Assembly (NCBI GenBank): GCA_938048455.1
Contig: CALIUY010000003.1
Location: forward strand, 181,077 to 245,076
DNA: 64,000 nucleotides
Source of the DNA: an uncultured Desulfobacterales bacterium
GTDB lineage: Bacteria; Desulfobacterota; Desulfobacteria; Desulfobacterales; SpSt-501
Direction of reading: 5' to 3'
Of the stretch, positions 8,169 to 54,236 are shown one piece after another. The notes beneath the pieces are model-generated. The model made no database searches. It was not told where the DNA came from and saw nothing but the letters and a program-made list of their open reading frames with translations. Position 1 is the stretch's first letter. Every line of letters begins with the position of its first letter. The translations under genes and the position numbers were made by a program.

Positions 8169-9371
8169 GTGATCCTGCACGTCGACATGGACGCCTTCTA
8201 CGCCGCGGTCGAGCAGCGCGACCGGCCGGAGCTTCGCGGCCTTCCGGTTGTCGTCGGCGGCACCGGAGGCCGCGGGGTGGTGGCGGCGGCGAGCTACGAG
8301 GCGCGCGCCTTCGGGGTGCGCTCGGCGATGCCCATGGCCGAGGCGCGTCGGCTCTGCCCGCAGGCCGTCTTTCTGCCGCCCCGGGGGGAGCGCTATCGCG
8401 AGGTCGCCCGCCGCATCCGCGAGGTGCTCGCCGGCTTCAGCCCGGTCGTCGAGCCCGTCTCGATCGACGAGGCCTTCCTGGACCTCGCCGGAACGGAGCG
8501 CCTTCACGGCCCGCCCGAAGCCGCGGGAAGGCAACTCAAAGAGCGGATCTTCGCCGCGGTCGGGCTCACCTGCTCGGTCGGCATCGCCCCCAACCGTTTT
8601 CTCGCCAAGGCGGCCTCCGATTTCCGCAAACCCGACGGCCTGACCGTGATCGCCCCCGGCGAGGTCGCCTCCTTTCTCGCCGCCCTGCCGCTTGAAAAGG
8701 CCCCCGGGGTCGGCCCCCGGATGCGGCAGCGGCTCTCCCGCTTCGGGGTGCGCTTCCTGGGGGAAATCGCCCGCATTCCCGAAATCGAGCTCGCGGCCCA
8801 TCTCGGCCGGGCCGGAAGGCGGCTCTGCGAACTCGCCCGGGGCATGGATTCTACCCCCCTCACCCCCGGTTCCTCCCCGCGCTCCTTCGGCAGCGAGTGC
8901 ACCCTCGCCCGCGACACCCGGGACCGGGACCTTCTTCGCCGGCTTTTGCTCGAACACGCGCAGGCCGTGGCGGGGGATCTCCGGGCGGCGGGGGTTCGCG
9001 CCCGCACGGTGGTTTTGAAAATCCGTCTGGCCGACTTCTCCCTCAACACGCGGCGGCGCACCTGGGAGGAGCCCGCTAGCGGCTCGCGCGAACTCCATCG
9101 TCGGGCGCTCGTTCTGCTCGAGGGGTTCCGGATCGGACAGCCGATCCGGCTGATCGGGATCGCCGCCACCGGCCTCGTCCCGGAAAAATCGGCCGGTCAG
9201 CGGCCGCTTTTCGCCGCCGAGCCGATGAGGGCATGGGAGCGGATCGACCGGACGATCGCCGCGATCGAGGAGCGTTTCGGGGAAGGAGCGGTCGTCCGCG
9301 CAAGCCTCAAGGAGGAGACGACGCCGTCCCCAGGGCCGCAAGGACGCGGCCGACGACCTGGTCGGGGGTGA
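8169..9371 (+). CDS. dinB: DNA polymerase IV, DinB
   Basis: Y-family translesion polymerase, 400 residues. The catalytic acidic residues are intact: HVDMDAFYAAVE near the N-terminus and PVSIDEAFLDLAGT around residue 100. The thumb and little-finger regions follow. Near the C-terminus QRPLF resembles a beta-clamp-binding motif. It starts with GTG, with AAGGA upstream. Its 3' end overlaps the convergent aroK gene by 65 bases. Unlike the Y-family protein encoded at 43.7 kb, this one should be catalytically active. No clear LexA-type site was recognised in front of it. Confidence 0.93.
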   Translation: MILHVDMDAFYAAVEQRDRPELRGLPVVVGGTGGRGVVAAASYEARAFGVRSAMPMAEARRLCPQAVFLPPRGERYREVARRIREVLAGFSPVVEPVSIDEAFLDLAGTERLHGPPEAAGRQLKERIFAAVGLTCSVGIAPNRFLAKAASDFRKPDGLTVIAPGEVASFLAALPLEKAPGVGPRMRQRLSRFGVRFLGEIARIPEIELAAHLGRAGRRLCELARGMDSTPLTPGSSPRSFGSECTLARDTRDRDLLRRLLLEHAQAVAGDLRAAGVRARTVVLKIRLADFSLNTRRRTWEEPASGSRELHRRALVLLEGFRIGQPIRLIGIAATGLVPEKSAGQRPLFAAEPMRAWERIDRTIAAIEERFGEGAVVRASLKEETTPSPGPQGRGRRPGRG

Positions 9372-34902: not shown

Positions 34903-35334
34903 TCAGCGCCGAGGGCCTTCCCCTCGGGGATTTTCGGACGCCGCCGACAGCAGGCAGCTCACGAAAAGGAGGGTTCCGTTTTTTTCGTCTTGGCCGCATT
35001 CCGCGATTGCCTCGCCGACGCGGACGCAGGTCTCGTCGTAGAGGGCGCTTGTCGTGCCCCCGACGTAGAGGGCGGAGACGGCGAACCGGCAGGTCGCCCC
35101 GGAGGAAAGGCCGGTGACGAGAAAGGCGGGGTGCGCGGGATCCTCCAGGGCGGAGAGGGGCAGCTGCGCGATTTTTTCCCAGGGCGCATCCCCCGTGCGG
35201 CGGAAGACGGCGTAGCCGACAAGACCGGGATCCGGGTCGGCCCGCCAGGAGAAGAGGAAATCGAGCGCCGCGGCCGCCTGCGGGAGCAGCCCGACGTAGA
35301 CCGAGACGGCAAGGGCGGGGCGAAGGCCGCTCAT
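34903..35334 (-). CDS. Small exported fibronectin type III-like protein
   Basis: A 143-residue protein with a probable signal peptide (ALAVSVYVGLLPQAAAA) and a single FnIII-like sandwich. The segments FSWRADPDPGLVGYAVFRR and TCRFAVSALYVGGTTSAL give the typical pattern of W, GY.V.R and A.Y. The C-terminal ~25 residues are basic and unstructured. It starts inside the stop of the DUF6178-like gene (ATGA), so the two are translated together. Function is unknown; such domains mediate binding in surface proteins. Confidence 0.6.
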   Translation of the reverse strand: MSGLRPALAVSVYVGLLPQAAAALDFLFSWRADPDPGLVGYAVFRRTGDAPWEKIAQLPLSALEDPAHPAFLVTGLSSGATCRFAVSALYVGGTTSALYDETCVRVGEAIAECGQDEKNGTLLFVSCLLSAASENPRGEGPRR

Positions 35335-37109
35335 CCGCCCCTCAGGAGAAACAGGAGCACAAAGCGGGGATCGAGGTTCTCGGGGGCGACCCGGCCGTAT
35401 TCCGCCTCGAGCTCAAGGAAGAGCTCCTCCAAAATCGGCCCCCAGGAGTCGCGGATATCCTCTTCGCCGATCCCCGTTTCCGCGGCCAGAAAGGAGACGA
35501 AGTCGGAGCGCCTCGCTTCGGGGATGCGCCGGGGGGACTCCGGGGCGGCGTTGGGCCCCGGCGCGAAGAGCGCGGCGAAAAAGGGCCGGAAGGCCGAAAC
35601 CGGAAGCGGCGCAAGCGGCTCTCGGGGCAGACCGAGCCGCCTTGCGGCCCAGGCGGTGAGCAGCAGATTCTTCCAGGTGAGAAAGCGGTAGCCCCCCGCG
35701 GGGCCGAGCTGCGGGGCAAGCCGGCCGAGCAACCGGTCGACCTCACGGATGCGCTCCAGGACGGCCGCCGTTTCGGCGATGTCGCCGCGCGAGGAAAACT
35801 CGCGGTACAGAAGTCCCCTGCGGTAGTTGTCATAGAAGAGGGGTTTTTTGAGCAGGATCCCTCCCAAAACGCCCATCCAGCGCTCGCCCCAGAAACTCAA
35901 CTTCAGCCCCTCGCGGGCGAACCAACTCGCGGCGAGCCATTTCTCGGTCTGCCACTTGAGTTGCAACGCCTCGCCGAAGCCGAAGCGGAAGAGGTCGACC
36001 AGCGGGTGGCGCAACAGCAGGGCGGCGGTGCGTGCGGGATCCGCTCCGCCCTCCGCCGCGCCGGCGAGCGTCTCCAGGGCGATTCCCAGATACCCGCAAG
36101 CCTTGGCGACCACCTCGCGCAACTCCTCGCGGCTTCGGACCGTGCGGCGGTCGGCGGCGATGATGCGGTTGCAGAGGTTGGCGAACTCCCACTGCAGAAA
36201 CAGCAGCCGCTCGCCGGGCTCGATCCGCGCGAGCGCCTGCCGCAAGGGTGTCGCCTCGGGCAACTCGCGCAAGGGCAAGGCCGGAACCGGAAGCAGGCCT
36301 TCGGCCTCTTCCGCGGGGGGCCGCGGGTAGTGTTTCGGCCGACTCCGCGCAAGCCGCCCGGCCGTGAGCGGCTGGTAGATCCCGATCGCCTCGTCGAAAG
36401 GGACGAAGCCCTTTTCGGCCAGCCGCACGTTCCGCCAGCGGTATTCCTCCTCCTCGGTCTCGGCCGGGATCACGTGGGCCGCCTCGAGGAGTACGCTCTG
36501 GAAGACGAGGTGGTCTTCGGCGGCGATTCTCTCGAGGAGCCGGGGAAGAAAGCGGCGGCGGCGGTCCTCGTCGATGTCCGATCCGCCGGGCAACCGCGGC
36601 AGGTCGAGGATGCGCCAATAGTAGACCTGATCGAAGGTGAAGAAGCCTTCGCCGAATTCCGAAGGGTCCTGGTCGTGCTCGCGGATGCGGACTTCGAGGT
36701 TGTGGAAGAGGTAGAGCTCGCCGAAGGTGAGCCGTTCCTGCAGCAACCAGCGCACGAAGCGCTGGGGGTCGGCCGCGAGCAGCAGGTCCATCCAGCGCGT
36801 GGTCCGGTGCACCTCGAGCCGGTCCCCGGCCCAGACCTCGACGTCGAGCAGGTGGTCCCACTGGCGGTTCGAGGCGAGCCTGAGCAGCGGCAGTGCATCC
36901 TCGGGGCCGATGTCCTGGACGAGGAGATAGAAATCGGTCTCGGGGATCGTGTGCACGAGGGCGGCCGGCTGCGGCGCGGCGAGGATGCGCTCGAGCGCCT
37001 GCTCCGCGGGAAGCGCGAGAATCTCGGCCCGCAGGCGCGCCAATTCCCGCAGCCGCTCGCCGGCGGCGGCCGCGGGCTCGGGAGGCGGCGAAGGGGGACG
37101 GTCAGCCAT
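35331..37109 (-). CDS. DUF6178-like protein of unknown function
   Basis: A 592-residue, mostly helical cytoplasmic protein without signal peptide or membrane segments. Recognisable stretches are IPETDFYLLVQDIGPEDALPLL, WDHLLDVEVWAGDRLEV, FTFDQVYYWRILD and LLFLQWEFANLCNRI. From memory these fit the DUF6178 family found mainly in Desulfobacterota; I cannot confirm it without a search. I start it at ATG 37109; the ORF-track start is a TTG five codons upstream, and neither has a strong ribosome site. It is the third gene of rdgB-ampG-DUF6178-FnIII. No function can be inferred beyond linkage to murein recycling and nucleotide pool cleaning. Confidence 0.6.
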   Translation of the reverse strand: MADRPPSPPPEPAAAAGERLRELARLRAEILALPAEQALERILAAPQPAALVHTIPETDFYLLVQDIGPEDALPLLRLASNRQWDHLLDVEVWAGDRLEVHRTTRWMDLLLAADPQRFVRWLLQERLTFGELYLFHNLEVRIREHDQDPSEFGEGFFTFDQVYYWRILDLPRLPGGSDIDEDRRRRFLPRLLERIAAEDHLVFQSVLLEAAHVIPAETEEEEYRWRNVRLAEKGFVPFDEAIGIYQPLTAGRLARSRPKHYPRPPAEEAEGLLPVPALPLRELPEATPLRQALARIEPGERLLFLQWEFANLCNRIIAADRRTVRSREELREVVAKACGYLGIALETLAGAAEGGADPARTAALLLRHPLVDLFRFGFGEALQLKWQTEKWLAASWFAREGLKLSFWGERWMGVLGGILLKKPLFYDNYRRGLLYREFSSRGDIAETAAVLERIREVDRLLGRLAPQLGPAGGYRFLTWKNLLLTAWAARRLGLPREPLAPLPVSAFRPFFAALFAPGPNAAPESPRRIPEARRSDFVSFLAAETGIGEEDIRDSWGPILEELFLELEAEYGRVAPENLDPRFVLLFLLRGG

Positions 37110-37129
37110 GGCGATCCGGTCCAAATCTA

Positions 37130-42235: not shown

Positions 42236-42883
42236 ATGGTCGTCCCGCTGACCCCCGTCCAGGAACGCCTGCTCGATTATCTGCGCCGCCGCATCGCGGA
42301 GGAAGGGCGCACCCCCAGCCTGCGCGAGGCCGCCTCCGCGCTCGGGGTGAGCCATGCCGCGGTCGCCCGCACCCTGCGCGCGCTCGCCGCGAAGGGCTGG
42401 ATCCGGCGCGAGGGCCGCTACGGGCGCACGATCGTGCTGCTGCGCGCCGCCCCCCCCGGTGCGGGGCGCGGCCGCGAAGTTCCGGTCGTCGGCCGCATCG
42501 CGGCCGGTCTGCCCCTCTACGCCCAGCCCGAGTGGGAGGGCTGCCTCGTGGTCGACGCCGTCCTCTTCCGCGGCGAGCGGCTCTTCGCCCTGCGGGTCCG
42601 CGGGGACTCGATGCGCGGGGCGGGGATCCTGGACGGCGACTTCGTCGTCTGCGAGCCGCGCCAGTACGCCGAAAACGGCGAGATCGTGGCCGCCCTCGTC
42701 CGCGGCGAGGAAGCGACCGTGAAACGCTTCTTCCTGCGCTCCGGCCACATCGAACTGCGGCCCGAAAACCCCGCCCACCCCGTCCAACGCCACGGCTTCG
42801 GCGAGGTGCTCGTCCAGGGACGGGTGATCGGGGTCGTCCGCCCGCCCGCCGCCGTAGGCGGGCCGCGGGAGAAAACGCGGTGA
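42236..42883 (+). CDS. lexA: LexA-family SOS repressor
   Basis: A 215-residue repressor. The N-terminal winged helix (LTPVQERLLDYLRRRIAEEGRTPSLREAASALGVSHAAVARTLRAL) is followed by the self-cleavage domain. The cleavage site is RIAAGLPLYA (Ala-Gly bond), the nucleophile serine is in RVRGDSMRGAGILDGD and the general-base lysine is in EEATVKRFF, so it should be RecA-inducible. The recognition helix differs from the E. coli type, which fits an unusual operator. It is the first gene of the cassette lexA-DUF72-imuB-dnaE2, with GGAGAGG before ATG 42236. Its stop overlaps the next gene's GTG. Whether it is the main LexA or a cassette-specific second copy cannot be decided here. Confidence 0.9.
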   Translation: MVVPLTPVQERLLDYLRRRIAEEGRTPSLREAASALGVSHAAVARTLRALAAKGWIRREGRYGRTIVLLRAAPPGAGRGREVPVVGRIAAGLPLYAQPEWEGCLVVDAVLFRGERLFALRVRGDSMRGAGILDGDFVVCEPRQYAENGEIVAALVRGEEATVKRFFLRSGHIELRPENPAHPVQRHGFGEVLVQGRVIGVVRPPAAVGGPREKTR

Positions 42884-43725
42884 GCGAAGGTTGCGAGATC
42901 CGGGTCGGCACCTGCGGCTACTCGTACCCCGAGTGGATCGAGGCGGGCTTCTATCCGCCGGGCACGCGGGCGGCGGACATGCTCCCCCTCTACGCCCGAC
43001 ACTTTTCCGTGACCGAGCTCAACTTCACCTGGTACCAGATGCCCAAGGCCCAAGCCCTGGAGCGCATGCTGCGCCTGGCCCCGCCGGGTTTCGCCTTCAC
43101 GGCCAAGCTCACGCGCACGCTCACCCACGAGGTCGATCCCGGGCAGTGGCGCGGCCAGGCGGCGCTCTTCCGCGAAGGGATCTCCCCGCTCCTCGAGCAG
43201 CGGCGTCTGCTCGCCGTTCTCCTCCAGTTCCCGGCCTCTTTCGTCCGCGCCCCGGCCTCCCGGCTCTACCTCGCGCGGCTGATCGAGGAACTCGAGGGCC
43301 TGCCGCTCGCGGTCGAGTTCCGCCACGCCTCGTGGGCCGAGGAGCGTGTCTTCCGCGAGCTCGAGCGCCGCCGCGTGACGCTCGCCGTCCTCGACGTCCC
43401 CCCGCTTCCCGGCCTGTTTCCCCCCGTCGAGGCGGTGACCCACCCCGGGCTCTTCTACGTCCGCCTCCACGGCCGAAACGCCCGCGGCTGGCGCTCGGGG
43501 AACCTCCAGCAGCAGTTCGACTACGACTACGCCGAGCCCGAACTCCGCGCCTGGGCCGAGGGGCCGATCCCGCGGCTCGCCGCGCGCGCCGCCCGCGGGG
43601 TGATCGTTTTCAACAATCATGTCCGCGCCCAGGCCGCGCGCAACGCGCTCGGCCTGCAACGGCTGCTCGCCGCCTCCGGCCTCCTCAGCGCGCCGCCGCC
43701 ATGGAACGAAGCATCATCCACCTGA
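42880..43725 (+). CDS. DUF72 (YecE-like) TIM-barrel protein in the SOS cassette
   Basis: A 281-residue protein of the DUF72/YecE family. The signature blocks are IRVGTCGYSYPEWIEAGFYPPG, FSVTELNFTWYQMP, FTAKLTRTLTH, LAVEFRHASW and VRLHGRN, with a final VIVFNNHVRAQAARNAL. The family has a TIM-barrel fold; some members are linked to nucleic acid metabolism, but the reaction is unknown. It occupies the position that imuA has in the usual lexA-imuA-imuB-dnaE2 cassette. It starts with GTG overlapping the lexA stop, and its end overlaps imuB by 25 bases, so co-expression is certain to follow lexA. Confidence 0.88.
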   Translation: MSEGCEIRVGTCGYSYPEWIEAGFYPPGTRAADMLPLYARHFSVTELNFTWYQMPKAQALERMLRLAPPGFAFTAKLTRTLTHEVDPGQWRGQAALFREGISPLLEQRRLLAVLLQFPASFVRAPASRLYLARLIEELEGLPLAVEFRHASWAEERVFRELERRRVTLAVLDVPPLPGLFPPVEAVTHPGLFYVRLHGRNARGWRSGNLQQQFDYDYAEPELRAWAEGPIPRLAARAARGVIVFNNHVRAQAARNALGLQRLLAASGLLSAPPPWNEASST

Positions 43726-44882
43726 ACGTGGCCGACTTCGCCGCGGCCGTGGAACGCGCCTTCGACCCGCGGCTTGCGGGACGGCCCTTCGTGATCGCCC
43801 GGGCGGAGGCGGTGCGGGCGACGGTTTTCGACATGAGCGAAGAGGCCTTCCGCGAAGGCGTACGCAAAGCGATGCCGCTCGCCCGGGCCCTGCGCCTGTG
43901 TCCGCAGGCGCGCCTCCTGCCGCCGCGGCCCGAGCGCTACGCCCGCGCCATGCGCCTTCTCCTGGAGGCCGCCCTTCCCTACACGCCGCGGATCGAGACC
44001 GGGCGGGCGGACGGACACCTCTTCCTCGACGCGACCGGAACGCGGCGGCTGTTCGGCCCCCCGATGGACATCGCCTGGCGGCTGCGCCGCGAAATCCGCG
44101 ATCGCCTGGGATTCTCGCCGATCTGGACGCTCGCCCCCAACAAGCTCGTCGCCAAGGCCGCCTCGCGCCTGGTGAAGCCCGAGGGCGAATACATCGTCGC
44201 CGAGGGCGAAGAAGAGGCCTTCCTCGCCCCCCTGCCGCTCGAGATCATCCCCGGCCTCGAGCGCCGCGATCTCGACGCCCTGGGGGCCTTCCGCCTCCGC
44301 CGCGCGGGCGAGGTGGCCGCGCTCGGGCTCGAGGAGCTGCGCCTGCTCTGCGGCGAACGCGCCGCCTTCCTTCACGAAGCCGTGCGCGGGATCGACCCCT
44401 CGCCCGTGCGCGTCGCGGGAGAGTCCGACCCCGAGGTCGGAGGCGAGGAGCGCTTCGCGGGCGAAACCGCGGACGAGGAGGAGCTCTTCGCCGCCGCCGC
44501 CCGGCTGGCCGAGCGCGCGGGCGCCGCGCTCCGCCGCCGCCGCCTGGCGGCCCGCCGCCTGCGGGTTTCGCTGCGCTACGCCGACGGCGGAAGCGCCCAG
44601 CGCCGAATTCGGCTCCTCCCGCCCACGGCGGACGACGTTCTCCTGCGCGACGCCGTCCGTCGCGCGGCGAGGGCGGCCTGGCGGCGCCGCCTGCGCCTGC
44701 GGGGCCTGGCGCTCGCCTGCGAGGACCTCGTCTTTCCGCCCGCCCAGCTCGCGCTCTTCCCCGATGCGGGAGGGGCCGAGACCCGCCGCCCGCGGCTGAC
44801 GGCGGCGATCGACCGCGTGCGGCGCCGCTTCGGGGAGGAGGCGCTGCGGGTCGCGGCCGCGCTCCCGCCGGGGGGGGCATGA
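43701..44882 (+). CDS. imuB: ImuB-like catalytically inactive Y-family polymerase homologue
   Basis: A 393-residue Y-family protein. The polymerase fold is recognisable (SIIHLNVADFAAAVERAFDP; RKAMPLARALRLCPQARLLPPR; APNKLVAKAASRLV). The metal-binding acidic residues of DinB are changed: HVDMD is HLNVA, and the DE pair of SIDEAFLD reads ADGHLFLD. Loss of catalysis is the hallmark of ImuB. The C-terminus carries QLALF, the beta-clamp-binding motif through which ImuB docks DnaE2. It overlaps DUF72 upstream and dnaE2 downstream (ATGA). The chain is shorter than typical ImuB (about 500 residues), so it is a compact variant. Confidence 0.85.
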   Translation: MERSIIHLNVADFAAAVERAFDPRLAGRPFVIARAEAVRATVFDMSEEAFREGVRKAMPLARALRLCPQARLLPPRPERYARAMRLLLEAALPYTPRIETGRADGHLFLDATGTRRLFGPPMDIAWRLRREIRDRLGFSPIWTLAPNKLVAKAASRLVKPEGEYIVAEGEEEAFLAPLPLEIIPGLERRDLDALGAFRLRRAGEVAALGLEELRLLCGERAAFLHEAVRGIDPSPVRVAGESDPEVGGEERFAGETADEEELFAAAARLAERAGAALRRRRLAARRLRVSLRYADGGSAQRRIRLLPPTADDVLLRDAVRRAARAAWRRRLRLRGLALACEDLVFPPAQLALFPDAGGAETRRPRLTAAIDRVRRRFGEEALRVAAALPPGGA

Positions 44883-47800
44883 TCGCCCTCGGGGTCCACT
44901 CGCACTACTCGCTGCTGCGCGGCACGGCCTCGCCCGGAGCGCTCTGCCGCGCCGCAAGCCGTCTCGGCTACCGCGCCCTGGCGCTCACCGACACGGACAA
45001 CCTCTACGGGCTCTGGGCCTTTCTTGCGGCCTGCCGCCGCGAGGGAATCGAGCCCGTCGTGGGGGCCGAGCTGACCGATCCCCGCCGGGGGGACGGCCTC
45101 GCCCTCTGCCTGGCCGCGACCGCCGAAGGCTACCGCAGCCTCTGCCGGCTCCTCAGCCGCCGCCGCTTCGCGGAGGCGGAGGGGTTCGATGCCGCCGCCG
45201 CGATCGCCCGTTTCGCCTCCGGCCTGCTCGTGCTCGCGGAAAACGCCGAGCTCCTCGAGCGGCTGCACGCCTGCGGGGTGCCGGCCGCCGCGGCCGTCAC
45301 GCCGCAGGCGATCCTCCGCTCCCACCCCCTGCGTCAGGCGGCCCGCAGGCTTCACGCCCCCGAGTTCGCCGTCCATCCCGCCTTTTTCCTCTCCCCCGAC
45401 GATCACCGCCTGCACCGGCTGCTCCGGGCGATCGACCGCCGGACGCTGCTTGCACGCCTTGCCGCGGAAGAGGCCGCCCCGGCCTCGGCCCGCCTGCTTT
45501 CGCCCGCGGAGCTCGCCCGGGCCTTCGCCTCCGACCCCGACCTCCTCGCCGCCTCCGAGGCCCTCGGCGCCTCGGTCTCCTTCCGGGGGCCGCGCTTCGG
45601 GTCGGTCCTCCCGCCGCGGCCCGGGGAGACGGCCGCCGAGAGCCTGGCCGCGCTTCGCCGCGCGGCCTACGAGGGCGCGCACCGCCGCTACGGCGCGGAG
45701 CTCCCCGAGGCCGTCGTCGAGCGGCTCGAGCACGAGCTCGACCTCATCGGCCGCAGGGGCTACGGCGCCTATTTCCTCATCGTGCGCGACATCGTGGCTC
45801 TGAGCCCCCGCACCTGCGGTCGGGGCTCGGCCGCCGCCTCGCTGGTCGCCTACTGCCTGGGGATCACGAACGTCTGCCCCCTGAAGCACAACCTCTATTT
45901 CGAGCGCTTCCTCCACCCCGGCCGCACGGACCCGCCCGATATCGACGTCGACTTCGCCTGGGACGAGCGCGACGCCGTGATCGCCGCCGTGATCGCCCGC
46001 CACCGCGGCCGCGCCGCCCGCATCGCCAACCACGTCCTCTTCCGGCCGCGGCTGGCCCTGCGCGAAACCGCCCGCGCCTGGGGGATCGGCGAGGCGGAGA
46101 TCCTGCGTCTCTCCCGCCGCCTGCCCGATTTCTGGTTGGAAGACGGGGAAGAGGCCGCGCTCGAAGCCGAAGAGCCGGAAACGACCCGCCTCCCCGACCC
46201 CTGGCCCGAGGTCCTCGAGCTCGCGCGCCGCTTGGTCGGAATCCCGCGTCACCTCTCGCTCCACCCGGGCGGGGTGGTGATCACCCCCGGGCCGATCACG
46301 GACTACGCCCCGATCGAGCCTTCGGCCGCGGGCGGGCCGCTCCTGCCGTGGGACAAGGACGGCGTCGAGGAAGCGGGACTGGTCAAGATCGATCTCCTCG
46401 GCAACCGCAGCCTCGCCGTGATCCGCGACACGCTCGCTTCGCTGGGGGAAAAGGCCCCCTTCCGGGATTTCTTCGCGGGATCCCCCGAGGAGGATTTCGC
46501 CACCCAGCAGACGGTCGCCCAGGGGCGGACCCTGGGCTGCTTCTACATCGAAAGCCCGGCGATGCGGCTTCTGCTGCGCAAGGGCCGCGTCGGCGACTTC
46601 GACCACCTGGTGATCCTGAGCAGCATCATCCGCCCCGCGGCCGGAGCCTACATCCGCGAGTTCCTGCGGCGTCTGCACGGCGGCCCCTGGGAGCCGCTTC
46701 ACCCCCTGCTCGCCGACATCCTCGCCGAAACCTTCGGGCTGCTCGTCTACCAGGAGGACGTCGCGCGCACGGCGGTCGCGCTGGCCGGCTTCAGCCCCGC
46801 CGAAGCGGACGGGCTGCGCAAGGTCCTCTCCAAGAAGGACCGCGACCGCGCGCTCGCCGACTTCGCCCGCCGCTTCCGCGAGGGGGCGCGCGCGCGGGGG
46901 CTTTCCGAGGCGCAGATCGCCGCCGTTTGGGACATGATCCTGAGCTTCGAGGGCTACTCCTTCTGCAAGCCGCACAGCGCCTCTTACGCCCGCGTCTCCT
47001 TCCAGGCGGCTTATCTGAAGACCCACCACCCGGCCGAATTCATGGCCGCCGTGCTCGCCAACGAGGGCGGCTTCTACCGCCCTCTCGCCTACGTCTCCGA
47101 GGCCCGGCGCCTGGGCCTGCGCGTGCTCCCTCCCGACGTGGCCGCAAGCGCGGTGCGCTGGAGCGGAGGCGGCCGAACTCTCCGGGTGGGGCTTTCCGCC
47201 GTGCGCGATCTCTCGGCGGAGTTGCCCGTACGCATCGTCGCCTGTCGGGCGGAGCGCCCCTTCGCCGACCTCGAGGACTTTCTCGCCCGCACCCGCCCCA
47301 CGGCCGAAGAGTTCCGCGCCCTCCTCGACGCCGGTGCCCTGGACGGCCTGGGCGGTGGGGAGGACCGCGCCGTTCTCGCCTTCCGCGCCGCACGCCTGCG
47401 CTGCGCCCGCGGCGGAAGCCGCCCGCAGCAGGAATCCCTCTTCGCCCCGCCCGCCGCGGACGGGCCTCCGCCGCGTTTCCCGCCCGAGGAGCCGCACGAG
47501 CGGCTGCACCGCGAATTCGCCGTCCTCGGTTTCCTCTGCGACCGCCACCCGATCGAGCTCTACGCCCCGGCCGTGGAGAAAGCGGGAGGCCTGCGGGCGG
47601 TCGAACTTTCCTCCCGCATCGGCCGGCGCGTGCGCTTCGCCGGCTGGCCGATCACCGGGAAACTCGTCGCCACCCGAAGCGGCGAGCCGATGGCGTTTCT
47701 CACCTTCGAGGACGAAACCGGTCTCCTCGAGGCGACCCTTTTTCCCCGCCCCTACCGCCGTTTCCGGCGCCTGCTCGCGACGGACCGGCCGCTGCTGCTG

Positions 47801-47914
47801 GCGGGGCGGGTCGAGGAAGACGGGGGGGCCCTCACCCTGACCGTCGATTCCCTGGAGCCCCTTCCGTCGCCTCTTCCCGGTGCCCGCCGGGGAAGCCGGA
47901 CTCCTCGGGCGTGA
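44879..47914 (+). CDS. dnaE2: Error-prone DNA polymerase III alpha subunit DnaE2 (ImuC)
   Basis: C-family polymerase, 1011 residues, the DnaE2 length. An N-terminal PHP domain (IALGVHSHYSLLRGTASP) is followed by the palm with catalytic PPDIDVDFAWDERD, CGRGSAAASLVAYCLGI, and KIDLLGNRSLAVIRD. The fingers include LVYQEDVARTAVALAGFSPAEADGLRKVLSKK and GYSFCKPHSASYARVSFQAAYLK. An OB fold (VRFAGWPITGKLVATRSGEPMAFLTFED) ends the chain, with QQESLF as a possible clamp motif. It performs translesion synthesis with ImuB. The last 83 bases overlap the convergent FkbM gene. Confidence 0.95.
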   Translation: MIALGVHSHYSLLRGTASPGALCRAASRLGYRALALTDTDNLYGLWAFLAACRREGIEPVVGAELTDPRRGDGLALCLAATAEGYRSLCRLLSRRRFAEAEGFDAAAAIARFASGLLVLAENAELLERLHACGVPAAAAVTPQAILRSHPLRQAARRLHAPEFAVHPAFFLSPDDHRLHRLLRAIDRRTLLARLAAEEAAPASARLLSPAELARAFASDPDLLAASEALGASVSFRGPRFGSVLPPRPGETAAESLAALRRAAYEGAHRRYGAELPEAVVERLEHELDLIGRRGYGAYFLIVRDIVALSPRTCGRGSAAASLVAYCLGITNVCPLKHNLYFERFLHPGRTDPPDIDVDFAWDERDAVIAAVIARHRGRAARIANHVLFRPRLALRETARAWGIGEAEILRLSRRLPDFWLEDGEEAALEAEEPETTRLPDPWPEVLELARRLVGIPRHLSLHPGGVVITPGPITDYAPIEPSAAGGPLLPWDKDGVEEAGLVKIDLLGNRSLAVIRDTLASLGEKAPFRDFFAGSPEEDFATQQTVAQGRTLGCFYIESPAMRLLLRKGRVGDFDHLVILSSIIRPAAGAYIREFLRRLHGGPWEPLHPLLADILAETFGLLVYQEDVARTAVALAGFSPAEADGLRKVLSKKDRDRALADFARRFREGARARGLSEAQIAAVWDMILSFEGYSFCKPHSASYARVSFQAAYLKTHHPAEFMAAVLANEGGFYRPLAYVSEARRLGLRVLPPDVAASAVRWSGGGRTLRVGLSAVRDLSAELPVRIVACRAERPFADLEDFLARTRPTAEEFRALLDAGALDGLGGGEDRAVLAFRAARLRCARGGSRPQQESLFAPPAADGPPPRFPPEEPHERLHREFAVLGFLCDRHPIELYAPAVEKAGGLRAVELSSRIGRRVRFAGWPITGKLVATRSGEPMAFLTFEDETGLLEATLFPRPYRRFRRLLATDRPLLLAGRVEEDGGALTLTVDSLEPLPSPLPGARRGSRTPRA

Positions 47915-49668: not shown

Positions 49669-50886
49669 ATGGTCGATCGCCCCTTGTACCGCAGCCTGTG
49701 GCGGGAGCTCACGCGCCACCCGCGCATGGTCTTCCTCTCCGGGCCGCGGCGGGTCGGCAAGACGACCTTGGGGCGGATGATCGGCGAAGCCTACCCCAAC
49801 CGGGTTTATCTGAATTGGGAGGATCCGGTGCAGCGGGTGCGGCTGATCCGGCATCCGCGGTTCTTGGAAGAAATCGAACGCGTCGACGAATCGACCCCGC
49901 TCGTTTTTCTGGACGAGTTCAACCGCTACCGCGGCTGGCGCCGTTTCCTCAAGGCCGGCTTCGACCGCACCGGCGGCGGCACCCAGTTTCTCGTCGCCGG
50001 CAGCAGCCGGCTCGACCAGGCCCGGCGGGGGGACTCGCTCGCCGGCCGCTACTCCCTGCTGCGGCTGTGGCCCTTCACCGTGGCCGAACTCGCCGGCGGC
50101 CGGCGTGCGCCGGAGGAGTTCTTCGCCGACCCGCTCGCCGTCGACATGGAGGCGAAAAACGAGCGCCGCGGCATCTGGCGCGGGCTGAGCGAGCAGGGGG
50201 GGTTCCCGGAGCCCTTTCTCTCGGGGCGCAAGACCGCCTGGCGGCGCTGGTCGGCGGCCTACGGTGCGCAGCTGATCCGTGAGGACATCCGCGACCTGAC
50301 GGCGATCAAGGCCATCGCCGAGCTGGAGACGCTCTTGGAGCTTCTGCCCGCCCAGGTGGGCTCTCCGGTGGCGATTCCGGCGCTCGCCCAGGGGCTCCAG
50401 GTCGCCTACAACACGGTGGCAAGCTGGCTGGCCACACTGGAGCGTTTCTTTTTGATCTTCAGCCTGACGCCCTGGTGGCGGGGGGTGCCGCGGGCGGTGC
50501 GCGAGGGGCGCAAGATCTACTTCTTTGACACGCCCCGCGTGCCCGACCCGGCGGGGCGCTTCGAGAACCTGGTCGCCCTCGAGCTCGCCCGCGCGGTCTC
50601 ATCCTGGAACGAGGCGGGCTGCGGCCGGTTTGCGCTCCACTACCTGCGCACCAAGGACCGCCAGGAGGTCGATTTCGTCGTCGTGAACGAAGGCCGGCCG
50701 ACCCTGCTCGTCGAAGCGGGGGGCGGTTCCGCCGAGCCCTCCTCGGCGATGCTCAAGTTCCAGGGGCTGCTGCGGATCCCGGCGGTGCATCTCGTGTCCG
50801 AGGCGGGCGGCTACCGGCGGGTGCAAAACCAGGAGCGGGGCGTGCTTGTGGCCCCGGCCTGCCAGTGGCTGGCCGGGCTTCCTTAG
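49669..50886 (+). CDS. AAA_14-DUF4143 ATPase
   Basis: A 405-residue P-loop ATPase of the widespread AAA_14/DUF4143 family. Walker A is GPRRVGKTTL and Walker B LVFLDEFNRYRGW, and sensor-1-like LVAGSSRLD follows. A winged-helix-like middle part is AIPALAQGLQVAYNTVASWLATLERFFLIF. The C-terminal DUF4143 nuclease-like fold contains the restriction-enzyme-type KDRQEVDFVV. The family's role is unknown. These genes are often solitary, patchily distributed and probably horizontally moved. It stands alone behind the AT-rich tandem palindromes. Confidence 0.85.
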   Translation: MVDRPLYRSLWRELTRHPRMVFLSGPRRVGKTTLGRMIGEAYPNRVYLNWEDPVQRVRLIRHPRFLEEIERVDESTPLVFLDEFNRYRGWRRFLKAGFDRTGGGTQFLVAGSSRLDQARRGDSLAGRYSLLRLWPFTVAELAGGRRAPEEFFADPLAVDMEAKNERRGIWRGLSEQGGFPEPFLSGRKTAWRRWSAAYGAQLIREDIRDLTAIKAIAELETLLELLPAQVGSPVAIPALAQGLQVAYNTVASWLATLERFFLIFSLTPWWRGVPRAVREGRKIYFFDTPRVPDPAGRFENLVALELARAVSSWNEAGCGRFALHYLRTKDRQEVDFVVVNEGRPTLLVEAGGGSAEPSSAMLKFQGLLRIPAVHLVSEAGGYRRVQNQERGVLVAPACQWLAGLP

Positions 50887-51141: not shown

Positions 51142-51729
51142 GTGGAAAAAGAAGATATCTTGCACGCGGAAGGCCGTCTGGGTGAGCTGGTCATCGGCAA
51201 CCGGATTCCCAAGGACTACTTCGTCACCAAGGGATCCGGCCAGAGCGATCTGACCGTCCACGCAGGTTCCTACCACCTTGCCCTCAAGGCGGCAGGGGTC
51301 GAGATGTGCAACATCATGACGTATTCCTCGATCCTGCCGAGCATCGCCACCGAAATCCCGAAACCCGAGCGTCTGGTCCACGGCTCCGTGATGGAGTCCA
51401 TCTTTTCCGTCTGCACCGTGAACCGAGGCGAGCGGGCGACGGCGGGGATCATCTACGGCTGGCTCTACGAAAAGAAGACCCGCCGCCGCTACGGGGGGCT
51501 GGTGTGCGAGCTCTACGGCGACCACTCGATCCCGGAGATCGAAAAGCGGTTGCACGCGAGCCTGGAGGAGCTCTATGTCAACGGCTATGCGGACGACTTC
51601 GAGCTCGCCGAGCGCCGACTGATCACCGAGAGCTTCGTCCCCGAAAAGAAATTCGGCACGGCGCTCGCCGCCCTGTGCTTCGTGAACTACCACGTCCCGA
51701 TCCTCGGCCGCACGACCCAGGGCCGTTGA
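51142..51729 (+). CDS. pdaD: Pyruvoyl-dependent arginine decarboxylase
   Basis: A 195-residue proenzyme that cleaves itself to give a pyruvoyl cofactor and decarboxylates arginine to agmatine, the first step of polyamine synthesis. The family segment FVTKGSGQSDLTVHAGSYHLAL is followed by NIMTYSSILPS; the Ser62-Ser63 bond is the predicted cleavage point, Ser63 becoming pyruvoyl. The proton-donor region is GERATAGIIYGWLYEKKTRRRYGGLVCEL. It starts with GTG 51142 after a weak AAGGG site. It is followed 79 bases later by a deoxyhypusine-synthase homologue, so the two form a polyamine operon. Confidence 0.9.
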   Translation: MEKEDILHAEGRLGELVIGNRIPKDYFVTKGSGQSDLTVHAGSYHLALKAAGVEMCNIMTYSSILPSIATEIPKPERLVHGSVMESIFSVCTVNRGERATAGIIYGWLYEKKTRRRYGGLVCELYGDHSIPEIEKRLHASLEELYVNGYADDFELAERRLITESFVPEKKFGTALAALCFVNYHVPILGRTTQGR

Positions 51730-51808
51730 CCGGGCCGGGAAACACGCCGCAGCCCCGATGCGCACCGAGGCCGTCGGGAGGGCGTCGTCCGCCCGGAGGG
51801 GGGAAGCG

Positions 51809-52831
51809 ATGAAGAAACCGAAAAAGAAGGATTTTCTCCAGAGCCCGGTGCGCCACGCGGCGATCACGCGCTTCGACGCCCGGCCGATCCTCGAAACGAT
51901 GGCCGGGATGTCCTTCAGCGCCCGCGAGCTCGCCCGCGCCGCCGAGATCTACCGCCGCATGCTGAACGACCCCGGTTGCACCATCGTGCTCGCCCTCGCG
52001 GGCAGCACGAGTGCCGCGGGCTGCATGCAGGTTTACGCCGACATGGTGCGCTACAACCTGGTCGACGTGGTCGTCGCCACCGGGGCCTCCATCGTGGACA
52101 TGGATTTCTTCGAGGCGCTCGGCTTCCGGCACTACCAGGGCACGGCCGCGGCCGACGACCGGCTGCTGCGCGAGCTCTACATCGACCGCATCTACGACAC
52201 CTACATCGACGAGGAAGAGCTCCAGGTCTGCGATTTGACGATCCAGAAGATCGCCGACGCGCTGCCGCCGCGGCCTTACTCCTCGCGCGAGTTCATCCGC
52301 GAGATGGGCCGCTACCTCACGCGCCATGCGGTCAAGAAGGGCTCGCTCGTCGAGCTCGCCTACCGCCACCACGTGCCGATCTTTTGCCCGGCCTTTACCG
52401 ATTCGAGTGCGGGCTTCGGCCTGGTGAAGCACCAGGCGGAGCGGCCGGAGAATCACCTCACGATCGATTCCGTCCGCGATTTCCGGGAGCTCACCCGGAT
52501 CAAGATGGAGGCGAAGACCACCGGTCTGTTCATCGTGGGCGGAGGGGTTCCCAAAAACTTCATCCAGGATACGGTGATCTGCGCCGAGATGCTGGGAAAA
52601 CCCGTTCCCATGCACCAGTACGCCGTCCAGGTCACGGTCGCCGACGTCCGCGACGGGGCCTGCTCGAGCTCCACCCTGAAGGAGGCCTCCTCCTGGGGCA
52701 AAGTGGACACGACCTACGAGCAGATGGTTTACGCCGAGGCGACCCTGGTCGTGCCGCTCCTCGTGAGCGACCTCTACCACCGCAAGGACTGGAAGAAGCG
52801 CCAGCGCCGGGAATGGGCCCGGCGGCTGTAG
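51809..52831 (+). CDS. Deoxyhypusine synthase-like aminobutyl transferase
   Basis: A 340-residue homologue of deoxyhypusine synthase. NAD-site segments are LALAGSTSAAGCMQVYADMV, VVVATGASIVDMDFFEALG and VPIFCPAFTDSSAGF. The C-terminal LKEASSWGKVDTTYEQMVYAEATLVVPLL holds the active-site lysine that carries the aminobutyl group. Bacteria lack eIF5A, and known bacterial homologues make homospermidine or similar polyamines from spermidine or putrescine. Linkage to arginine decarboxylase suggests agmatine or an agmatine-derived amine as partner; the product is not known. A strong GGAGGGGGGA site precedes ATG 51809. Confidence 0.85.
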   Translation: MKKPKKKDFLQSPVRHAAITRFDARPILETMAGMSFSARELARAAEIYRRMLNDPGCTIVLALAGSTSAAGCMQVYADMVRYNLVDVVVATGASIVDMDFFEALGFRHYQGTAAADDRLLRELYIDRIYDTYIDEEELQVCDLTIQKIADALPPRPYSSREFIREMGRYLTRHAVKKGSLVELAYRHHVPIFCPAFTDSSAGFGLVKHQAERPENHLTIDSVRDFRELTRIKMEAKTTGLFIVGGGVPKNFIQDTVICAEMLGKPVPMHQYAVQVTVADVRDGACSSSTLKEASSWGKVDTTYEQMVYAEATLVVPLLVSDLYHRKDWKKRQRREWARRL

Positions 52832-52877: not shown

Positions 52878-54236
52878 CTACCGGAAGATCCTCAGGAAAA
52901 GCACGGCGATCTGGAAGTAGATCGTGATCCCGATCGCGTCGATGAGGGTCGCCATGAGCGGCCCCGCCGTGAGCGCCGGGTCGAGGCGGAGCCGTTTGAG
53001 CGCCAGCGGGATGAGCGCCCCGCCCAGATTGGCGAGGAGCAGCGTGACCAGAAGCGCCGCGCCCACGATCGCCGCCAGCACCAAATGGTGGTCCTGGAGA
53101 AAGACGCGGAAATAAGCGATCAGCCCCAGCGCCCCCCCCAACGCGACGCCCATCCAGACCTCGCGGCCGAAGACGCGCAGGAAATCCGCCGGCCGCACCT
53201 CCCCCAGCGCGAGCGCCCGCACCACCATCGTCGCCGATTGCGTGGCGGCGTTGCCGCAGGTGCCCACGACCATGGGAATGAAGAAGGCGAGCGCCACCAT
53301 CTCCTGGAGCGTCGGCGCATTCCACTCCATGACGGTGGTGGAGATCAGCGAGGTGAACAGAAGAATCGCCAGCCAGCAGAAGCGGCTCCAGAACAGCCGC
53401 GGCATGGAGCGCTGGAAATATTCCTCCTCGAAGGGCACGACGGCCGAAATGCGGTGGAAGTCTTCGGTGTTTTCGGCCTCGATGATGTCGATCACGTCGT
53501 CGACGGTGATGATGCCGAGCAGCCGCTTTTCGTCGTCCACCACGGGCAGCGCCAGAAAGTCGTACTTCTGGATGAGATCGGCCGCGGCCTCGACGTCCAG
53601 GTCGTGGGGGACGGAGATGACGTTGTCTTCCATGATCTCGCGCAGCCGCTGCTGGGGCTTCGAGAGGATGAGATCGCGCAGCGAAAGCACCCCCACGAGG
53701 CGATGCCGCTCGTCGGTGACGTAGATGTGGTAGATCGTCTCCTTGTTCGGGGCGAGCAGCCGCAGGGTCTCAAGCGCCTCGCGCACGGGGATCTCGGGGG
53801 CGAGGTTGCAGTACTCGGTGGTCATCACCGCGCCCGCCGTACCCTCCCGGTAATTCCAGAGACGGCGGATCTCGTTTCGTTCGGCCTGGGCGATCAGCGG
53901 CAGGATCGCCTCGCGTACCTCCTCGTCCACCCGTTTGAGGAGATCGACGCGGTCGTCGGGTTCCAGGTTCTCGACGAACTGCAGGAGCGTACGCGTGCGG
54001 CCCGTTTCGAGGCAGGCCTTCTGGGTCTCGAGCGAGAGATGGGCAAAGGCCTCGATGGCGAGCGAATTGCCCACCTTGACGAGGGTCTCGACGATCTCCT
54101 CGGGCGCGAGACCGCCCGCTTCGAGCGCCTCGGCGATGTCGGCCGGGTGCATCTCGCGCAGGGCTTCGACTTCCTTGCGATCCTCGATGCGGCAGGAAGC
54201 CGCGTTCTCGGGAACGATCTGCGGCGCGGTGTTCAT
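52878..54236 (-). CDS. mgtE: Magnesium transporter MgtE
   Basis: Homodimeric Mg2+ channel, 452 residues. A helical N domain (LREMHPADIAEALEAG, about residues 20-130) precedes a CBS pair (GAVMTTEYCNLAPEIPVREAL; VISVPHDLDVEAAADLIQKYDFLALPVVDDE) that gates the channel in response to Mg2+. Five membrane helices follow, with the pore motif GTCGNAATQSATMVVRALALGE and the pore-acidic DAIGITIYF. AAGGAG lies 7 bases before ATG 54236. The long upstream leader is described separately. Confidence 0.95.
   Translation of the reverse strand: MNTAPQIVPENAASCRIEDRKEVEALREMHPADIAEALEAGGLAPEEIVETLVKVGNSLAIEAFAHLSLETQKACLETGRTRTLLQFVENLEPDDRVDLLKRVDEEVREAILPLIAQAERNEIRRLWNYREGTAGAVMTTEYCNLAPEIPVREALETLRLLAPNKETIYHIYVTDERHRLVGVLSLRDLILSKPQQRLREIMEDNVISVPHDLDVEAAADLIQKYDFLALPVVDDEKRLLGIITVDDVIDIIEAENTEDFHRISAVVPFEEEYFQRSMPRLFWSRFCWLAILLFTSLISTTVMEWNAPTLQEMVALAFFIPMVVGTCGNAATQSATMVVRALALGEVRPADFLRVFGREVWMGVALGGALGLIAYFRVFLQDHHLVLAAIVGAALLVTLLLANLGGALIPLALKRLRLDPALTAGPLMATLIDAIGITIYFQIAVLFLRIFR

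Follow-up and report, generated by a model that had tools for sequence, protein, structure and literature searches.

The pair of genes and their products

The window analysed here is a 64,000-nucleotide stretch of DNA from an uncultured bacterium that is probably a sulfate reducer, and the genome to which it belongs (G000) is 3.38 Mb in 64 contigs and 96.5% complete. On its forward strand, a gene of the pyruvoyl-dependent arginine decarboxylase family (PvlArgDC) is followed by cdmS, which encodes a homologue of deoxyhypusine synthase (DHS) (Table 1). Both frames show a coding-like GC content by codon position and are kept in sequence and in position among relatives, indicating that they are not chance open reading frames. 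The pairing, proposed in an initial annotation that used the letters alone, was borne out by profile searches: PvlArgDC matched PF01862 at 89.3 bits (cut-off 22.7) over the entire profile, and CdmS, the sole PF01916 protein found in the genome, scored 317 bits. As also noted in that annotation, neither an agmatinase nor an agmatine deiminase gene adjoins the pair at this locus; aguB and aguA do occur side by side in this genome, on a different contig. The AAA_14/DUF4143 and mgtE genes on either side mark the locus and lie outside the polyamine pathway.

Table 1. Features of the PvlArgDC-cdmS locus (positions refer to the window).
Feature	Position	Strand	Basis
AAA_14/DUF4143 ATPase, upstream neighbour, conserved flank	49669..50886	+	Pfam; same place in G003, G004, G002
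PvlArgDC (pyruvoyl-dependent arginine decarboxylase, PF01862), divergent subfamily, 195 aa	51142..51729	+	PF01862 89.3 bits
Intergenic gap, 79 bp, site of speB in four congeners; remnant not visible	51730..51808	+	sequence comparison, conserved flanks
CdmS, caldomycin-synthase-type DHS homologue	51809..52831	+	NF002699 572.5 bits, PF01916 317 bits
MgtE magnesium transporter, downstream neighbour, conserved flank	52878..54236	-	Pfam/NCBIfam; same place in G003, G004, G001

PvlArgDC fell under the cut-offs of the NCBIfam equivalogs TIGR00286 (38.8 versus 106.95 bits) and PRK12398, and we therefore place it in a divergent subfamily. A TYSSILP motif (Ser62-Ser63) and Glu123 are invariant in the PvlArgDC proteins of 9 relatives, and both align with the M. 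jannaschii enzyme, 1n2m, the only solved relative found (alignment E=0.0066). The two serines are presumably the self-processing pair and Glu123 presumably the catalytic residue. A structure predicted from 9 sequences had a pLDDT of 42 and was set aside. The genomic context points to arginine as the substrate. Other decarboxylases stand at this place in related genomes: SpeA (897 bits), transcribed in the opposite direction, in one member of the same genus (G001), and a SpeD-like gene in a member of the same order (G029). At SAR11 cdmS loci the decarboxylase is an AR-fold enzyme. The SpeD family has given rise to some arginine decarboxylases (PMC10407285), and for two such AR-fold enzymes arginine decarboxylase activity has been demonstrated (PMC9992855).

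The initial annotation drew cdmS as a frame of 357 aa at 51758-52831 (+), which the residue numbers given here follow; the ATG at 51809 (MKKPKKKDFL, behind GGAGGGGGG) is the better start, being where the homologues begin. CdmS passed the caldomycin synthase model NF002699 with 572.5 bits (cut-off 500) and stayed under all the DHS equivalogs that it matched (292/434, 231/364, 214/304, 149/350 and 140/380, bits/cut-off). It also stayed under the homospermidine biosynthesis model NF001980 (179 versus 450 bits), which we take to represent the Anabaena-type, putrescine-using cyanobacterial enzyme. Cyanobacterial SpeY is likewise a bacterial DHS-family enzyme tied to homospermidine, but by these scores it belongs to a different subfamily. 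By the tests feasible on sequence, the window protein belongs to the CdmS family.

The Thermus member of this family, TTHA1570, joins two agmatines into caldomycin and does not use putrescine or spermidine; a SpeB-type ureohydrolase then turns caldomycin into homospermidine, and caldomycin itself was not detected in vivo (PMC10981699). The catalytic and putative guanidine-binding residues of TTHA1570 correspond, by motif spacing and at an offset of 16 throughout, to S83, E152, D159, F220, E309 and K315 of CdmS, of which Lys315 is the predicted catalytic lysine; Leu286 of the Thermus enzyme differs, its counterpart being Cys302. None of the six varies among 112 family proteins (F220 was unreadable in one row). 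Within the same order, three further DHS homologues have Ala at the position of Ser83 and Val, Leu or Met at that of Phe220, whereas the remaining mapped residues are mostly common to these homologues and do not discriminate. The model scores, the invariance of the catalytic and guanidine-contact residues and the agmatine-only coupling by the Thermus member all favour agmatine as the substrate of CdmS. Thus, of the earlier proposal that agmatine production is coupled to an aminobutyl-transfer enzyme, the coupling to a DHS-type transferase is supported and generic aminobutyl transfer is not, CdmS falling in the agmatine-agmatine family of NF002699 (PMC10981699).

It is highly improbable that CdmS is a protein modifier of the deoxyhypusine synthase kind. 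Although it shares the family and the catalytic lysine with the eukaryotic and archaeal enzymes, it missed every DHS equivalog cut-off, has Phe and Cys at the positions of human Asp243 and Asp316, and neighbours arginine decarboxylases and agmatine-processing enzymes. To our knowledge, bacteria have no eIF5A, as the initial annotation also remarked.

Loss of speB and the polyamine genes of the genome

A SpeB ureohydrolase belongs to this cluster in five congeners. In four (G002, G004, G005 and G006) an agmatinase-family SpeB separates PvlArgDC from cdmS; G001 has it directly upstream of cdmS. The two genes are separated by 79 bp in the window and by 97 bp in G003, the closest, 91%-identical relative (100% complete), with no visible remnant of speB; the AAA_14 and mgtE genes on either side are found in the same positions in G003 and G004. 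Whole-genome searches with the ureohydrolase profile PF00491 gave no match in G000, none over the cut-off in G003, and one protein over the cut-off in each of the five other congeners and in G029. The agreement of two independent assemblies speaks against an assembly fault and, as many Bacteroidales and G029 also have SpeB next to cdmS, loss is the simplest reading. That no agmatinase gene adjoins the pair in the sub-lineage of G000 and G003 reflects a derived loss. SpeB may have been lost independently a second time in a Bacteroidetes MAG (WY5.bin28; L102 1-1299), whose contig starts inside PvlArgDC: ∼160 bp separate this gene fragment from the downstream cdmS, and speB is absent from the interval.

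AguA (PF04371) was found only in G000 and G003 among the eight genomes searched, seven of them of the genus. The G000 protein scored 358.8 bits (cut-off 25), and a gene for an AguB-type amidase is adjacent. AguA and AguB remained under the equivalogs TIGR03380 and TIGR03381, at 221 versus 382 and 287 versus 410 bits, respectively. The genes around aguBA resemble, by eye only, dsr-type electron-transfer genes. Within the genus, the genomes with aguBA are precisely the two without SpeB, a pattern suggestive of compensation.

Searches of G000 recovered neither SpeE nor SpeD, and no fold-I decarboxylase over the cut-off. The single PF02784 protein (fold-III decarboxylase) is LysA-like, and the CASDH/CANSDC route to spermidine was discarded on that account; of two PF03435 proteins, the one scanned matches no NCBIfam model. 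With no SpeA or ODC, SpeE or SpeD found, no route for building polyamines was seen other than PvlArgDC-CdmS together with AguBA. The initial annotation had proposed a genome search for speB, aguA and speE: speB and speE were not found, and aguA was present with aguB. The complete standard spermidine pathway that it named among the observations against its proposal was not found in G000 (no SpeE, no SpeD). The Thermus system resembles this one in having an arginine decarboxylase as the source of agmatine; in the window genome, unlike there, the decarboxylase is pyruvoyl-dependent and both a ureohydrolase and a SpeE/SpeD pathway are missing.

Alternatively, caldomycin could be the end product, accumulating since SpeB was lost, with AguA and AguB serving agmatine only. 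Two genomes that are 96.5% and 100% complete carry no ureohydrolase, the PvlArgDC-cdmS pair is retained and conserved, and another triamine route was not found. We nonetheless regard this as unlikely, given that aguBA is present in precisely the SpeB-less genomes of the genus, which hints at compensation, and that no caldomycin was detected in Thermus in vivo (PMC10981699).

As a possible marker of linkage to CdmS we also considered a reversal of charge in AguA, where Arg stands for Asp89 of plant AIH and GDDTDGH reads GDDTHGH. Asp89 of the plant enzyme helps bind the amine of agmatine (PMC6447857). The reversal is common to this lineage and to the readable SAR11 copies linked to cdmS, but it also occurs in Desulfobacterota genomes without CdmS, and the ordinary form is present in the CdmS-bearing G205, G275 and G316, so that it was rejected as a marker. 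Compared with agmatine deiminases of known structure, AguA at L114 9942-11039 (this lineage) and at L055 7886-8938 (SAR11) reads T[ND]RxW in place of TNDxW and has His for Asp in GDDTDGH.

SpeB and AguBA at other cdmS loci

A scan of public genomes for relatives of CdmS yielded 80 loci that were kept; more exist. Within this set speB lies near cdmS at 37 loci and aguB at 20, neither at 23 and both at none, and aguB is followed by aguA wherever the contig extends far enough. In a tree built from 110 CdmS proteins the SpeB/AguBA state switches at least five times, a count limited by gene transfer and by the support of a quick tree. The window protein and that of G003, for which the state was scored at the level of the genome and not locally, pair with full support, and the remaining AguBA rows fall in the SAR11 part. 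The decarboxylases that accompany cdmS belong, where assignable, to arginine-decarboxylase types (Pvl, SpeA, SpeD-like or AR-fold). Some alphaproteobacterial cdmS genes adjoin an AR-fold decarboxylase with neither SpeB nor AguBA nearby, and sequence comparison did not separate ornithine from arginine specificity in the alphaproteobacterial AR-fold enzymes.

Several loci are arranged in other ways. A canonical PvlArgDC, a different DHS homologue (∼27% identical to CdmS and over no NCBIfam cut-off) and AguA stand in a row at L192 3761-6635 (G097), and the DHS homologue and AguA are similarly arranged at L195 (G349). An AguB-like gene of the nitrilase family, a weak match at 24-27% identity, lies between speB and cdmS in two Bacteroidales (L035 3006-7002 and L040 3049-7008), and in one SAR11 locus (L061 7023-7910) cdmS and speB are separated by a gene that looks PhzF-like by eye.

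Proposed routes to homospermidine

Clusters combining an arginine decarboxylase, a DHS homologue (SpeY) and SpeB or AguA/AguB have already been described (PMC10407285, PMC9992855). The SAR11 clusters ADC-SpeY-SpeB and ADC-SpeY-AguB-AguA and the speDA-speY clusters resemble the window in that an arginine decarboxylase adjoins the DHS homologue, and their third function is SpeB or AguAB, as in the window lineage. In Gimesia maris, a SpeD-derived pyruvoyl decarboxylase is encoded immediately upstream of the DHS homologue and aguA-aguB lie elsewhere (PMC10407285), also as in the window genome. The window differs in its PF01862 decarboxylase, which in those clusters is SpeD-derived or AR-fold instead.

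We tentatively favour, at slightly less than even confidence and from sequence comparisons, the view that the pair is at the centre of a homospermidine pathway, with AguA and AguB in place of SpeB. PvlArgDC would convert arginine into agmatine and CdmS would join two agmatines into caldomycin, from which AguA, the deiminase, and then AguB, the carbamoyl amidohydrolase, would remove both guanidino groups to give homospermidine; the substrates and the order of these steps we infer. SpeB, the ancestral remover of guanidino groups, would have been lost from its place between PvlArgDC and cdmS, with AguA and AguB, encoded elsewhere, taking over its role. The takeover is favoured because SpeB was lost and AguA gained in G000 and G003 only, and because SpeB and AguBA alternate beside cdmS and never occur together at the 80 kept loci; the start from agmatine is favoured by the arginine-decarboxylase type of the assignable cdmS partners. 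The initial annotation had suggested homospermidine or a less usual polyamine as the product, which is supported, homospermidine or a guanidino-polyamine being likely.

What this pathway would require of AguA and AguB is held a little more cautiously: they may strip caldomycin by way of N-carbamoylated homospermidines to homospermidine, and may have replaced SpeB repeatedly, in this lineage and in SAR11. Such a reaction, which would be a hitherto unrecognised final stage of agmatine-coupled polyamine synthesis, needs a longer substrate than agmatine, which counts against the explanation, and we found no precedent in the literature for AguA or AguB acting on caldomycin. The scores of both proteins under their equivalog cut-offs also count against it, as do the loci with an AR-fold decarboxylase and without SpeB or AguBA, which would fit an ornithine decarboxylase followed by putrescine coupling.

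These same loci are consistent with a different order of steps, in which AguA and AguB, and formerly SpeB, convert agmatine into putrescine and a SpeY-type DHS homologue couples two putrescines to the same product. This is how the same types of cluster were read previously, with SpeB or AguAB producing putrescine and SpeY then forming homospermidine (PMC9992855, PMC10407285); it requires no new activity of AguA or AguB and explains the exchange of SpeB equally well. We consider it a real possibility but a doubtful one, since the characterised member of the NF002699 family did not use putrescine (PMC10981699) and the guanidine-contact residues of that enzyme are conserved in the window CdmS. 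The characterised putrescine-using cyanobacterial type, to which we assign NF001980, is moreover another subfamily, and CdmS scored 179 of the 450 bits needed for that model.

Published readings of related DHS-type enzymes therefore disagree, SpeY being taken to start from putrescine and CdmS from agmatine. The genus offers a natural experiment, in that the ureohydrolase has been cleanly lost, aguBA is present and another triamine-building route was not found, and the window locus makes the disagreement directly testable. The specific prediction of the favoured agmatine-coupling pathway is that AguA and AguB act on caldomycin. The answer bears on SAR11, very abundant ocean bacteria with the same exchange beside cdmS; if the prediction held, the SAR11 'homospermidine synthase' would also be an agmatine coupler.

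Elsewhere in the window, the region 42236-47914 (+) encodes a LexA-like repressor and, next, two frames that by eye resemble DUF72 and a Y-family polymerase, followed by a DNA polymerase III alpha gene. This polymerase is a second copy, with PHP, alpha, finger, HHH and OB domains, and the arrangement resembles a LexA-ImuB-DnaE2 mutagenesis cassette. Apart from this group, the window encodes a DinB-type Y-family DNA polymerase (IMS, IMS_C) at 8169-9371 (+) and a full-length DUF6178 protein (517 bits) at 35331-37124 (-).
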